Positions 3,757 to 33,284 of a stretch of DNA of 64,000 nt are shown here, piece after piece. Numbering within the stretch: position 1 is the first letter of the stretch; each line of letters starts with the position of its first letter. Below the pieces are notes generated by a model. That model made no database searches and was not told where the DNA came from. It was given only the letters and a program-made list of their open reading frames with translations. A program made the position numbers and the translations under genes. The DNA is from Jiangella muralis (GTDB lineage: Bacteria > Actinomycetota > Actinomycetes > Jiangellales > Jiangellaceae), in contig NZ_KQ434759.1 of the NCBI RefSeq assembly GCF_001270745.1, forward strand, positions 1-64,000, written 5' to 3'.

Positions 3757-4889
3757 CCGCGCCGGTCGTGGTCGCGGCGCGGCGCACGCCCATCGGGACC
3801 GCCGGGAAGGCGCTGCGCGAGGTGACCGTCGACCAGCTGGCCGCGCCGGTGCTGTCGGCGGTCGTCGACGACGTGTGGCCGCTCACCGCGATGCGTCCGG
3901 TCGACGACGTCGTGCTCGGCAACTGCATGGGCCCGGGCGGGAACGTCGCGCGGGTCGCGGCGCTGGCCGCCGGGTTCGACGTCGCCGTGCCGGGCGTCAC
4001 CGTCGACCGGCAGTGCGGCAGCGGGCTGGCCGCGATTCTGCAGGCCGGGCAGGCGATCCGGTCCGGCGAGGCGCGGCTGGTGCTGGCCGGCGGCGCCGAG
4101 AGTGCGTCGACGGCTCCGCAGCGGGTCGGTGCGGCCGGGCCGTACGACCGCGCGCCGTTCACCCCGCCCGAGTTCGGTGACCCGGACATGGGCGCCGCCG
4201 CCGACGACCTCGCCCGCCGCCGCGGCGTTACCCGCGGCCGGCAGGACGCCTACGCCGCCGCCAGCCACCGGAAGGCGCTGCTGGCCCGCGACGCCGGCCG
4301 GTTCGACGCCGAACTGGTGCCGGTCGGCGGGCTGGAGCGCGACGACCGGCCGCGGCCGCTCGATCCGGCCGTTCTGGCCCGGATGCCGCCCGCGTTCGTC
4401 CCGCGCGGCTCCGTCACCGTCGGCAACTCGTGCGCCAACAGCGACGGCGCCGCCGTCGTCGCGCTGACCGGCGACGACCTGCGGGCCGGACGGCCGGGGC
4501 TGCGGCTGGTGGCCGGCGCCGTCGTCGGCTGCGACCCGCGGCTGCCCGGCTGGGGCCCGGCGCCGGCGGTGCAGCGGGTGCTGGCCTCCGCGCGGGTCGC
4601 GCTGGGCGACGTCGCCGCCGTCGAGATCGTCGAGGCGTTCGCCGGCCAGGTGCTCGCCGTCACCGACGCGCTCGGGCTGGACCCGCTCGGGCCCGACGCG
4701 GGCACCGTCTGCGCCGACGGGGGCGCGCTGGCGCTCGGGCACCCGTGGGGCGCGTCGGGCGCCGTCGTCGTCGTGCGGCTGTTCGCGCGGCTGGTCCGGG
4801 GCGGCGCGCCGGCCGGGACGCTGGGCCTGGCGACCGCGGCGATCGGCGGCGGGATGGGCGTGGCCGGGCTGTTCGAGGTGGTTCGGTGA
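3753..4889 (+). CDS. thiolase-family protein with altered second catalytic cysteine
   Basis: A 378-residue acetyl-CoA acetyltransferase-like enzyme. The nucleophile motif VDRQCGSGLAAI (Cys88), NSCANSDGA and the GHPWGASG histidine (about His330) are intact. The C-terminal motif that normally reads CIGGGxG is AAIGGGMG, so the acid/base cysteine is alanine (about residue 363). Such a protein might acylate without efficient Claisen chemistry, or use another base. It starts with a GTG inside the ligase stop and overlaps bioN by GTGA, so all three are translationally coupled. The product may be a beta-ketoacyl or degraded acyl-CoA; context links it to biotin or pimelate-like substrates. Confidence 0.85.
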   Translation: MTAPVVVAARRTPIGTAGKALREVTVDQLAAPVLSAVVDDVWPLTAMRPVDDVVLGNCMGPGGNVARVAALAAGFDVAVPGVTVDRQCGSGLAAILQAGQAIRSGEARLVLAGGAESASTAPQRVGAAGPYDRAPFTPPEFGDPDMGAAADDLARRRGVTRGRQDAYAAASHRKALLARDAGRFDAELVPVGGLERDDRPRPLDPAVLARMPPAFVPRGSVTVGNSCANSDGAAVVALTGDDLRAGRPGLRLVAGAVVGCDPRLPGWGPAPAVQRVLASARVALGDVAAVEIVEAFAGQVLAVTDALGLDPLGPDAGTVCADGGALALGHPWGASGAVVVVRLFARLVRGGAPAGTLGLATAAIGGGMGVAGLFEVVR

Positions 4890-5491: not shown

Positions 5492-7068
5492 CCCGAGACC
5501 TGGGCGATGCCCGGCACGCCGGCCTCGACGGTGACGCTGGCCCGGGTGCTGACCGGTGCGCCCGGCTGCCGGACGTACGGGACGACGCGGTAATCGGTGC
5601 GCCAGGCATCCGGCGTCAGGGTGCAGGTGGCGTAGCCGCGCTGGACGTTGTGGAACTTCATGTGCGGGTTCTCGGCCAGCCAGACGGCGCCGAGCGGGTC
5701 CTGGTCGACGCCGTCGCCGCCCGCGCTGATCGACGTCGCGAGGAACTCGGCGCCCACCGTCGCCGAGCCGGGGTCGTCGAAGTTCGCCTTGAGATCGGCG
5801 GCCACGGAGCGGTGCGCGTCGCCGGTGATCACGACGAAGTTGTCCACGTCGCGCTCGCGGACGCCGTCGAGCAGCCGGGTCCGGGCCGCCGCGTAGCCGT
5901 CCCAGGTGTCCATGCCGAACGCCTGCACCGGGCCGGCCTCGTGGTCGGCCTGCATCATGAAGATCTGGTTCGCCAGCACCTTCCACGTCGCCCGCGAGTC
6001 CGCCAGCCCGTCCAGCAGCCACGCCTCCTGCGCGTCGCCGAGCATCGTCCGGGCCGGGTCCAGGCGGTCGGCGCAGTCGATCTGCCGGCCGTCGCCGCAG
6101 GCCTGGTCGTCGCGGTACTGGCGGGTGTCGACGACGTTGAAGTCGGCCAGCGTGCCGTAGCGCAGCCGCCGGTACAGCTGCATGTCCGGGCCGACCGGCA
6201 TCGACGCGCGGCGCAGCGGCATGTTCTCGTAGTACGCCTTCAGCGCGGCGATGCGGCGGGCCCGGAAGACCTCGCCGCCCACGCCGCCGCCGTCGACGTC
6301 GTCGGCCCAGTTGTTGTCGATCTCGTGGTCGTCGAGCACCACGACCCATGGCGCGGCGGCGTGCGCGGCCTGCAGGTCGGGGTCAGTCTTGTACTGGCTG
6401 TAGCGGACGCGGTAGTCGGTCAGCGAGTGGCACTCGACGGCGGGCAGGTGGGCGCGGCCGATGGTGCCGGCGCCGCCGCCCTCGTAGATGTAGTCGCCCA
6501 GCTGCACGACGAGGTCGACGTCCTCCTCCGCCAGGTGGCGGTAGGCGGTGAAGTGGCCTTCCGAGTAGTTCTGGCAGCTGGCGTAGGCGAAGCGGACCTG
6601 GCTGGGACTCGCGTCGGTGGCAGGGGCGGTGCGGGTGCGGCCGACCGGGCTCAGCTCGCTGCCGGCGCGGAACCGGTACCAGTAGTCGCGGCCCGGCTCC
6701 AGCCCATCGGCCTCCGCGTGCACCGAGTGCCCCAGCTCCGGCGTCGCCCGGACCGTGCCGGATCGCTCGATCTCGCGGAACCGCGGGTCGCGGGCGAGCT
6801 GCCACTGCACCGGGACCGCCCGCTGCGCCATCCCGCCGCTGCCGTCGGCCGCCAGCGGGTCCGGCGCCAGCCGCGTCCACAACACCACCCCGTCCGGCGC
6901 CGGATCGCCCGACGCGACACCGAGCGTGAACGGGTTGGCGCGGAACACCGGGTTCGCGCGGACCGGCGCGGCCGAGAACCCGGCCAGCGCGGCGGTGAAC
7001 GTCAGCGCGCCGCCGCCGGTCAGGGCGAGGAACCGGCGGCGGTCGAGGGTGGACGGCGATGCGGGCAC
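5488..7068 (-). CDS. phoD: exported alkaline phosphatase D family metallophosphoesterase
   Basis: A 526-residue PhoD-type enzyme hydrolysing phosphate esters or diesters outside the cell. A twin-arginine signal (DRRRFLALTGGG plus a hydrophobic run) opens the protein. An Ig-like N-terminal domain (FTLGVASGDPAPDGVVLWTR) follows, then the metal-binding core with FAYASCQNYSEG, QLGDYIYEGG, VVLDDHEIDNNW and VVITGDAHRS. The GTG at 7068 is chosen over longer frames because GGAGG lies seven bases upstream and it puts the RR motif near the N-terminus. It is last in a minus-strand series after the PHP and amidase genes. No Pho box was recognised. Confidence 0.9.
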   Translation of the reverse strand: MPASPSTLDRRRFLALTGGGALTFTAALAGFSAAPVRANPVFRANPFTLGVASGDPAPDGVVLWTRLAPDPLAADGSGGMAQRAVPVQWQLARDPRFREIERSGTVRATPELGHSVHAEADGLEPGRDYWYRFRAGSELSPVGRTRTAPATDASPSQVRFAYASCQNYSEGHFTAYRHLAEEDVDLVVQLGDYIYEGGGAGTIGRAHLPAVECHSLTDYRVRYSQYKTDPDLQAAHAAAPWVVVLDDHEIDNNWADDVDGGGVGGEVFRARRIAALKAYYENMPLRRASMPVGPDMQLYRRLRYGTLADFNVVDTRQYRDDQACGDGRQIDCADRLDPARTMLGDAQEAWLLDGLADSRATWKVLANQIFMMQADHEAGPVQAFGMDTWDGYAAARTRLLDGVRERDVDNFVVITGDAHRSVAADLKANFDDPGSATVGAEFLATSISAGGDGVDQDPLGAVWLAENPHMKFHNVQRGYATCTLTPDAWRTDYRVVPYVRQPGAPVSTRASVTVEAGVPGIAQVSG

Positions 7069-31553: not shown

Positions 31554-32687
31554 TCAGCCGATCGCGAGGGCGGCGGCGACGCGGTCGCGGAGGGCGTTGA
31601 CCTCCTCGCTGGTGAGGGTCCGGTCGACTGGGCGGAGCACCAGCCGGAGCAGCACGTTCTCCTGCCCGGGCCGCATCGCCAGCCGCTCCCGCGCAGCCGC
31701 CGGAAGGTCCGCGTACGGCGTCGTGGAGAGGACGGCGACCTCCTCGACGAGGTCGGCGTCGGGGCCGAGGGCCTCGCGGACGCGGTCGCCGAGCAGTTCG
31801 GCGTCCGAGCCGGCGGCGACGGCGACGGAGAGGTCGCGGCGGGCCGGCGGCAGGCCGGACACCGGCTGGTACGGCGTGAGGTCCAGCAGTTGCCCGGCCA
31901 CCCGCGGGTCGGCGGAGCGCAGCAGCCGGATGTCCGGGATGCCCTTGCGCAGCATGAGCGCCCGGTCGAGCCCCATGCCGAGCGCAAGTCCGGACCACGA
32001 GGACGGCGACAGCCCGGCGGCGGTCAGCACCTCCGGCGCGGCCAGCCCGCATTCGGCGATCTCGACCGGGTGGCCGTCGTGGATGGCCTCGACCTCCCGG
32101 CCGCCGGACGTGTACGGGTGCGACGTCGCCGTCCAGCGCCAGTGGGTGCCCGGCAGCAGCGCGTCGACGAGGGTGGTGACCAGAGCCTGCAGGTCGTCGT
32201 GGTCGAGCCGGCGGCCGCCGCGGCGCAACAGCCAGAGGTCGAGCTGGTGCGGCGTGCCGGTGTGCAGACGGTCGATGGAGTCGCGGCGGTGGCAGATGCC
32301 GGGCAGCACCAGCAGCACGTCCCGCTCCGGCGCGCCCCCGGCGGCGAGCGCGCGCAGCGCCGGCGGCACCCCGGCCGACGTGTGGCTGCGCAGCATGGTG
32401 GTGTCGCTGACGTAGCGGGTGTAGCGGGCGTCGCGCGAGACGGCGTCGCGCTGGTAGCCGAGGCGGTCGTAGTTGTCCTCGACGGCGACGACCGGGCGCG
32501 AGCGCAGCAGCCGGACGTCGGCGTCCCACCGTTCACCCAGCGCCGAGGCGGCGGCGGTGACGAGGAGTTGCAGGGCATGCGGCCCCTGCGCGGGATCGGT
32601 GAGGTCGCGCAGCGAGAGCGCGTCGACCAGGGCGGGCAACGACAGCGGCTGCGGGCGGCTATCGGAGGCAGCGAGAGAAGTAGTCAT
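31554..32687 (-). CDS. single-chain phenylalanyl-tRNA synthetase-like protein (PheS core fused to FDX-ACB)
   Basis: A 377-residue class II synthetase relative. The PheS-type catalytic motifs are recognisable: TTMLRSHTSAG (residues 97-106), CHRRDSIDRLHTGTPHQLD (132-150, motif 2) and GLALGMGLDRALMLRKGIPD (233-252, motif 3). Residues 271-377 form an FDX-ACB anticodon-binding domain (TPYQPVSGLPPARRDLSVAV; LRPVDRTLTSEEVNALRDRV). Bacterial PheRS is normally a PheS/PheT tetramer with FDX-ACB at the PheT end; this fusion resembles mitochondrial PheRS. It may be a paralogue that charges tRNA, makes Phe-derived compounds or gives inhibitor resistance. It is preceded by a Trp-Phe leader peptide and an SD-masking hairpin. 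Confidence 0.8.
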   Translation of the reverse strand: MTTSLAASDSRPQPLSLPALVDALSLRDLTDPAQGPHALQLLVTAAASALGERWDADVRLLRSRPVVAVEDNYDRLGYQRDAVSRDARYTRYVSDTTMLRSHTSAGVPPALRALAAGGAPERDVLLVLPGICHRRDSIDRLHTGTPHQLDLWLLRRGGRRLDHDDLQALVTTLVDALLPGTHWRWTATSHPYTSGGREVEAIHDGHPVEIAECGLAAPEVLTAAGLSPSSWSGLALGMGLDRALMLRKGIPDIRLLRSADPRVAGQLLDLTPYQPVSGLPPARRDLSVAVAAGSDAELLGDRVREALGPDADLVEEVAVLSTTPYADLPAAARERLAMRPGQENVLLRLVLRPVDRTLTSEEVNALRDRVAAALAIG

Positions 32688-32694
32688 GACCGGG

Positions 32695-32749
32695 CCTTTC
32701 GCGGAAGGGAAGCGGATGGATGCTCCCCCGGCCGGTCGTCCGCGAAGGG
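32695..32749 (-). promoter_or_regulatory. hairpin masking the Shine-Dalgarno of the PheRS-like gene
   Basis: Plus-strand CCTTTCGCGGA (32695-32705) and TCCGCGAAGGG (32739-32749) pair over 11 positions with one mismatch that becomes a G-U pair in RNA. In the minus transcript the 5' arm begins right after the leader peptide stop, and the 3' arm contains GAAAGG, the ribosome-binding site seven bases before the ATG at 32687. A ribosome at the end of the leader would prevent the stem, so this looks like translational attenuation. Confidence 0.55.
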
Positions 32750-32821
32750 TCAGGCGTGCGAACCCTCCGGGCGGCGGACGTTCGCCGACCGGGGGCCGCT
32801 AAACCAGCGCTGACCTGGCAT
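32750..32821 (-). CDS. putative 23-residue Trp-Phe leader peptide
   Basis: ATG at 32821 to TGA at 32750-32752 encodes a peptide starting MPGQRWFSGPRSANVRR. Trp-Phe are residues 6-7, and the Phe codon is TTT, rare in this DNA where TTC dominates. TAGACT on the minus strand (32829-32834) sits seven bases upstream, giving a leaderless mRNA; its TAG is also the stop codon of the AHSA1 gene. Together with the hairpin at 32695-32749 it looks like a regulatory leader for the PheRS-like gene. Conservation was not tested. Confidence 0.55.
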   Translation of the reverse strand: MPGQRWFSGPRSANVRRPEGSHA

Positions 32822-32831
32822 GTGCTGGAGT

Positions 32832-33284
32832 CTAGCCGAGCGCCAGCTGATCAGCCAGGCGCGACAGGCTGTCGTGCCAGCCCTTGAGGTGGTCGTCGCG
32901 CTGCTCCTCGGTCGGGTTGTGGCTGTGCGTCACCACGACCTCGGTGCCACCCTGCTCCGACGGGGCGATGCGGACGGCGACCCGGCTGGCGGGCGCGTTG
33001 TCGCCGTCCCACGACCAGATGAACGTCACCAGGCGGGGCCGCCGGATCTCGCCGAAGATGCCGCGGACCGCGACGTTGTGGCCCTTGGACAGCCCGGTGG
33101 TGCGGAAGCTGAACCGACCGCCGGCCCGGGGATCGGTCTCGTAGATCGCGGCGAACGCCGGCGGCCAGTACCAGCCGGCCAGCCGCCGTGGCTCGGTGAA
33201 CATCGGGAAGACGTCGTCGGGGTCGGCGTCGACCACCATGGAGACGACGGCGGTGGTGGCATCGGGGGTGGATGACTCGACCAT
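32832..33284 (-). CDS. SRPBCC/AHSA1 domain protein
   Basis: A 150-residue START-like protein. The family pattern is seen in VSMVVDADPDDVFPMFTEPR, LAGWYWPPAFAAIYETDPR, GGRFSFRTTG, GEIRRPRLVTFIWSWDG and TEVVVTHSHNPTEEQRDDHL. Such proteins bind hydrophobic ligands or co-chaperone targets, and often pair with ArsR regulators, though none is adjacent. Its stop codon is embedded in the -10 box that serves the downstream leader peptide on the same strand. Function in this organism unknown. Confidence 0.9.
   Translation of the reverse strand: MVESSTPDATTAVVSMVVDADPDDVFPMFTEPRRLAGWYWPPAFAAIYETDPRAGGRFSFRTTGLSKGHNVAVRGIFGEIRRPRLVTFIWSWDGDNAPASRVAVRIAPSEQGGTEVVVTHSHNPTEEQRDDHLKGWHDSLSRLADQLALG

Follow-up and report, generated by a model that had tools for sequence, protein, structure and literature searches.

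The srmL gene of Jiangella muralis is preceded by a leader that is a real, conserved regulatory element. We suggest, with a probability of roughly 70%, that this region is a ribosome-mediated attenuator in which the supply of Phe-tRNA sets srmL expression, with the gene switched on when decoding of Phe stalls. As far as the literature that we searched shows, the element has not been described before. It recurs in front of srmL in many actinobacteria and on an Azotobacter plasmid, and Phe-rich leaders precede srmL in huge phages. The window that was analyzed is a stretch of 64,000 nucleotides (contig NZ_KQ434759.1, positions 1 to 64,000), and the features discussed below are collected in Table 1.

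Table 1. Features of the srmL leader region, with positions in the window.
Feature	Position	Strand	Remark
-10-like box TAGACT	32829..32834	-	7 nt before the leader ATG (32821)
Leader ORF, 23 codons plus stop, MPGQRWFSGPRSANVRRPEGSHA	32750..32821	-	homologous ORFs precede srmL at 43 loci
Single Phe codon TTT, proposed sensor	32801..32803	-	one per leader in 43/43
Segment A, CCCCCGGTCGG (Pro-Arg-Ser-Ala codon region)	32785..32795	-	a ribosome waiting at Phe would mask part of it
Segment A', CCCGGAGGGT, may pair with B (as an anti-sequestor) and/or with A	32762..32771	-	plausible, weakly supported
Segment B, CCCTTCGCGGA, 5' arm of B:D, abuts the leader stop	32739..32749	-	
Segment C, CCGGCCGGGGG, G-rich, next to B, pairs with A	32725..32735	-	
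Segment D, TCCGCGAAAGG, srmL Shine-Dalgarno region, 3' arm of B:D	32695..32705	-	
srmL, for a 377-aa, single-chain ligase of the PheRS type with a class II core and an FDX-ACB-like domain	31554..32687	-	

The original prediction described a TAGACT box followed by a short frame with Trp-Phe, and all of these are present on the minus strand as described, with the leader stop codon at 32752–32750. The rarity of TTT was also noted correctly, as seven genes of the window contain 1 TTT and 85 TTC. We obtained 43 readable leaders upstream of srmL from about 18 lineages, namely Jiangellaceae, Pseudonocardia, Kineosporia, Kineococcus, Rathayibacter and another of the Microbacteriaceae, Glutamicibacter, the large-genome actinobacterial family f17, two other actinobacterial families, an uncultured, AT-richer bacterium (L078), and the Azotobacter plasmid. 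Exactly one Phe codon is found in every leader, at position 6 to 9, and it is TTT in 39 and TTC in 4; the third base varies, and the changes are synonymous only. The share of TTT in genes near srmL is 0–12%. The spacing from Phe to segment A is constant in all leaders, and two codons past Phe there is Pro, or in two cases Leu-Pro, where segment A has a sequence of the CCC(C)CGG type. The conserved upstream ORF with the relevant codon or codons expected of an amino acid attenuator is seen in the 43 leaders as well as in the phage leaders. The connection of the leader with Phe has thus held, but Trp, which had been put forward as part of the signal, was rejected because it is not conserved. It precedes Phe in only 13 of the 43 leaders, those of Jiangella and one relative, and the other leaders have Leu, Arg, Thr, or Ser at this position.

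A TANNNT box is present at −14 to −12 in 37 of the 43 leaders, where 2.5% would be expected by chance. This is in line with the earlier view that the leader transcript is probably leaderless. No sigma-70 consensus was found in the window. A covariance model of the leader (R1) matched 22 of 297 genomes of the class, with one match in each, and all of the matches are directly in front of srmL; there was no match upstream of any other gene in the 297 genomes. A family member whose genome is 81% complete has neither srmL nor the leader element.

The best-supported helix, A:C, was absent from the original prediction, and its 5′ arm is just downstream of the Phe codon. All 33 sequences gave p < 0.05 for A:C, with one at 0.05, when compared with dinucleotide shuffles. 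In a swap test, the complementarity of arms from the same lineage was compared with that of arms swapped between lineages, for 18 lineages. A:C has z = 7.0 in this test, and four control segment pairs have z between −1.4 and 0.3. On alignment A4, 98% of the cells of A:C are paired, and three pairs have both sides changed. The helix that had been predicted, a stem masking the Shine–Dalgarno sequence (SD), is B:D. It does follow the leader stop and takes in the SD of the gene that begins at 32687, with CCCUUCGCGGA (32749–32739) opposite UCCGCGAAAGG (32705–32695), but the 11 positions form 10 pairs with one C·A mismatch rather than 11. In the window sequence alone, B:D gives p = 0.20 against dinucleotide shuffles, and single-sequence significance of this stem was rejected. 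The swap test, by comparison across the 18 lineages, gives z = 6.8 and p ≤ 0.0002. Furthermore, alignment of the homologues, the check proposed with the prediction, shows that the SD stem is kept, as is the short ORF.

The segments are arranged along the leader in the order A, B, C, D. Since A:C and B:D cross, they would form either one pseudoknot or alternating folds. A third pairing, A′:B, could act as an anti-sequestor, and its swap test gave z = 1.9 (p = 0.04). In single-sequence shuffle tests, B:D, A:A′, and A′:B were mostly not significant. Masking of the Phe codon switches the fold in truncated transcripts, with about equal effect when B is shuffled, and the folding gain of A′:B is not above that with shuffled post-stop sequence (Stouffer 1.6). 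Because the gain is no larger than with shuffles, we do not claim the anti-sequestor, and a switch of this kind is only hypothetical. Thus, of the possible mutually exclusive folds, A:C and B:D covary, A′:B is not above chance, and clear competition between 2:3 and 3:4 pairings is seen in phages only. Equilibrium folding of full-length, high-GC leaders with the Phe mask does not consistently free the SD.

The sequestered SD or intrinsic terminator expected of an attenuator is found as B:D in the window and the other lineages, and as terminators in Azotobacter, L078, and the phages L114 and L118. The counterpart of segment C ends with a U tract in L078 and in Azotobacter, and hence A:C or a local C hairpin would be an intrinsic terminator in these two. 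The Azotobacter srmL, with its Phe leader and U-tract terminator, is on a plasmid of Azotobacter chroococcum, a gammaproteobacterium (L086). In the high-GC members, there is no U tract after C, and a search of the window found no U-tract terminator. At gathering score, seven srmL loci did not match any Rfam family, including T-box and amino acid leaders, and the Rfam matches in the window are at chance level only.

The mechanism that we propose would begin with a leaderless transcript starting at the leader AUG. With an ample supply of charged tRNA-Phe, the ribosome would pass the Phe codon, allowing A to pair with C and B to pair with the srmL SD in D, and the crossing helices would give a pseudoknot in which srmL is kept off. 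An intrinsic terminator in some relatives would also use C as its 3′ arm. If charged tRNA-Phe is scarce, the ribosome would instead wait, with Phe as the A-site codon, and cover A. Because the waiting ribosome would cover the start of A, A:C would be prevented, the silent fold would be lost, and srmL would be expressed. The case for attenuation is made by the conservation of the ORF and its Phe codon, the covariation of A:C and B:D, the exclusive association with srmL, and the Phe-rich, attenuator-like leaders of the phage srmL genes. Translation of the leader, stalling, polarity, and the putative action of SrmL on tRNA-Phe are read from sequence. We infer the polarity, with shortage as the on state, from the terminator-bearing members and the phages, which are its strongest support; it is less certain for the high-GC leaders.

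SrmL is encoded on six huge-phage contigs (L114–L119) of 180–635 kb. L114 is the uncultured phage LR745206.1 (634,780 bp; locus 610848–617882, reverse complement), and the other five are IMG/VR contigs of 180 to 578 kb. Phe-rich leaders with intrinsic terminators precede srmL in two of them. The leader of L114, MNTNTTFNFFFSHKMV, has 4 Phe codons (FNFFF) and is followed by CCCUCAGACUUAAAAAUCUGAGGGUUUUUU. Folding of this region gives a Phe-codon hairpin (1:2) without a ribosome, the antiterminator (2:3) when the ribosome is held at Phe before the last arm has been transcribed, and the terminator (3:4) with a ribosome at the stop. The full transcript at equilibrium always gives the terminator, as would be expected for a kinetic switch. 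The L118 leader, MNMLNKNNFSFFMFDFFGTQARGAILLKE, has six Phe codons (FSFFMFDFF), and the 5′ arm of its terminator, GGCGCCUAAUGGUGCCUUUUUU, is able to pair with the leader, giving an antiterminator/terminator pair. In two of the phages, srmL is within a tRNA island. In one of these (L116/L123), a tRNA-Phe(GAA) gene flanks srmL on either side (4714–4788 and 6240–6314), and these two are its nearest tRNA genes; in the other (L119/L124), the second nearest is a tRNA-Phe(GAA) gene (4806–4880). Together with the terminators of L078 and Azotobacter, these features suggest that Phe-tRNA is the signal, that its shortage would induce srmL, and that SrmL probably acts with tRNA-Phe.

The description of the downstream gene as synthetase-like is correct, but the pocket of the product differs from that of a true PheRS. 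The protein matches NCBIfam NF051887, 'PheS-related mystery ligase SrmL', with 520.6 bits (cut-off 300) over residues 26–375 of 377. Pfam finds the PheRS core (PF01409) and, weakly and below its cut-off (26.4 of 31.1 bits), the FDX-ACB domain (PF03147). The AlphaFold model has a mean pLDDT of 81, with low values for residues 66–101, and its best fold match is human mitochondrial PheRS. SrmL has the class II core motifs and the anticodon-binding domain of PheRS, and the catalytic motifs (the RRD of motif 2, the motif 3 Arg, and HQ) are retained. In place of the Phe pocket sequences FPFTEP and GFAFG of PheS from the same genome, SrmL has HPYT and LALG. In all sampled bacterial SrmL, FPFTEP is replaced by HPYT, GFAFG by GLALG or GLAMG, and HQxE by HQxD, and a phage copy has HYYT and LAMG. 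Since the Phe pocket is altered, a direct gain in Phe-tRNA from SrmL is not assured. The Jiangella genome (7.27 Mb) also encodes an ordinary pheS-pheT pair, and thus SrmL is extra. No tRNA-Phe gene was found beside srmL in 24 bacterial loci; tRNA-Arg is beside it in two Pseudonocardia loci. No conserved operon partners of bacterial srmL are obvious from the ORF layouts, and a literature search for SrmL or 'PheS-related mystery ligase' found nothing relevant. We offer, as a possibility somewhat less likely than not, that SrmL is an auxiliary single-chain tRNA-Phe ligase that actinobacteria share with plasmids and huge phages and that is produced only during a shortage of Phe-tRNA-Phe, and whose remodeled pocket could keep tRNA-Phe charged under PheRS inhibition or load an amino acid other than Phe. 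The high-GC leader would then be a new design, with one rare Phe codon beside a pseudoknot that buries the SD.

Could the polarity be the opposite? The original prediction, in which the leader ribosome makes the downstream start accessible, is one of two possible polarities. In most members, B starts 0–14 nt past the leader stop, within the footprint of a terminating ribosome, and a ribosome at the stop would open B:D directly. Leader-completing ribosomes would then sit over B and free the SD, and a stall at Phe would let B:D form, so that srmL would be on when Phe-tRNA is plentiful and off when it is scarce. The strong covariation of B:D is consistent with this, as are the full-length folds with the Phe mask, in which the SD is still paired in many members. 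B:D is also about 50 nt beyond the Phe codon, and hence a ribosome at Phe would not open it directly. However, the Phe codon is positioned relative to A, not to B, and the terminator layouts of the phages, Azotobacter, and L078 are such that a stall at Phe favors read-through. The synthetase attenuators known to us are, furthermore, induced by shortage. Layouts of trpS and leuS attenuators have been described (PMC1262725). We consider the opposite polarity unlikely, and induction by shortage of Phe-tRNA is the polarity that we prefer.

It is less probable still that the region is a structural RNA, with a pseudoknot bound by protein or tRNA, in which translation of the ORF merely keeps the RNA open and the Phe codon is not a sensor. 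Covariation of A:C and B:D would be expected for such an RNA, and a protein-bound pseudoknot was preferred for the actinobacterial LEU element, in which codon changes were ineffective (Seliverstov et al., PMC1262725). The Phe codon, however, is invariant with only synonymous changes, its spacing is fixed, and the phage leaders are rich in Phe.

The original prediction also allowed for a response to a drug. A drug-induced stall on the nascent peptide, in the style of erm/cat leaders, with srmL as a resistance gene, has no support, and we find it very improbable. In erm/cat leaders, the ribosome is stalled by a drug together with the nascent peptide, at a site that overlaps the SD stem on its 5′ side. 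The srmL leader is similar in that its SD is sequestered in a stem, but its Phe codon is well upstream of that stem, at the distance given above. The residues before Phe vary freely (RW, RL, RR, QR, TR, and TS), so there is no nascent-chain motif. Two plasmids have resistance genes near srmL, with a truncated copy near erm(X) and tet(65) in Corynebacterium and an intact copy adjoining a cmx-type efflux gene in Glutamicibacter, but such neighbors are found on those two plasmids only. That the region is a chance product or by-product of GC-rich sequence kept for another reason agrees with the mostly nonsignificant single-sequence tests of B:D, A:A′, and A′:B, but it can practically be dismissed, being contradicted by the swap test, the exclusivity of R1, the invariant Phe codon, and the conservation of the −10 box.

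Ribosome-mediated attenuation dependent on Phe-tRNA can be compared with known systems. A Streptomyces gene for an auxiliary tryptophanyl-tRNA synthetase reportedly has a ribosome-mediated attenuator. As with srmL, a second synthetase-type gene is present beside the housekeeping one, the leader has the relevant codon, and RNA folds are in control. The srmL leader differs in using Phe rather than Trp, in having a single codon and a leaderless ORF, and in an SD stem that crosses the first helix; the activity of SrmL is, moreover, only predicted. Enterobacterial pheST and pheA have Phe attenuators with runs of Phe codons and U-tract terminators. They share with srmL the Phe leader codons, the synthetase gene, and the terminator, and the phage srmL leaders resemble them closely, whereas the high-GC srmL leaders lack both the Phe codon runs and the U-tract terminators. 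The auxiliary TrpRS attenuator (Vecchione & Sello 2010, J Bacteriol 192:3565) is cited as reference 57 in PMC4787780, and a trpS2 attenuator has been predicted in S. avermitilis in a survey that also mentions pheST (PMC1262725). The LEU element, which precedes leuA in Actinobacteria (Seliverstov et al. 2005, PMC1262725), likewise has a leader ORF, a pseudoknot-capable region, and base pairing to the SD of the gene that it regulates. In LEU, the run of Leu codons itself pairs with the leuA SD, and codon changes have no effect (PMC1262725). In the srmL leader, by contrast, segment A, which comes after the one Phe codon, has C as its partner, and a separate post-stop segment pairs with the SD; there is no Leu run, and the gene is a different one. 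The srmL leader would work like the Streptomyces TrpRS attenuator and has a layout reminiscent of LEU, but it is a member of neither, and we regard it as a new, variant form of amino acid attenuation.

The name given to SrmL by the NCBI curators is that of a mystery ligase, and the leader is a first clue to its function. It points to the signal that the cell attaches to SrmL, the decoding of Phe, and the phage loci hint at its tRNA; together, these make the function of SrmL directly testable. The leader would also be a Phe-responsive RNA control in Actinobacteria, for which the 2005 survey reported no RNA control of phenylalanine genes (PMC1262725), and an amino acid attenuator carried by huge phages.

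Several other copies of srmL were seen. In Pseudarthrobacter sp. NamB4, the SrmL match covers residues 35–114 only, with no recognizable leader, and resembles a decayed copy. The truncated Corynebacterium copy is on a C. diphtheriae plasmid (OV884290.1; L087, 5001–5627) and is interrupted by a transposase-like stretch. The intact copy of Glutamicibacter nicotianae, on pGnB68, has its leader and is downstream of the efflux gene, which is of the Cmx/CmrA chloramphenicol type. Among the phages, srmL comes after a HisRS-like ORF in L115/L120, and a permuted tmRNA gene is predicted on the 180-kb srmL contig (L127, 865–1240, minus strand).
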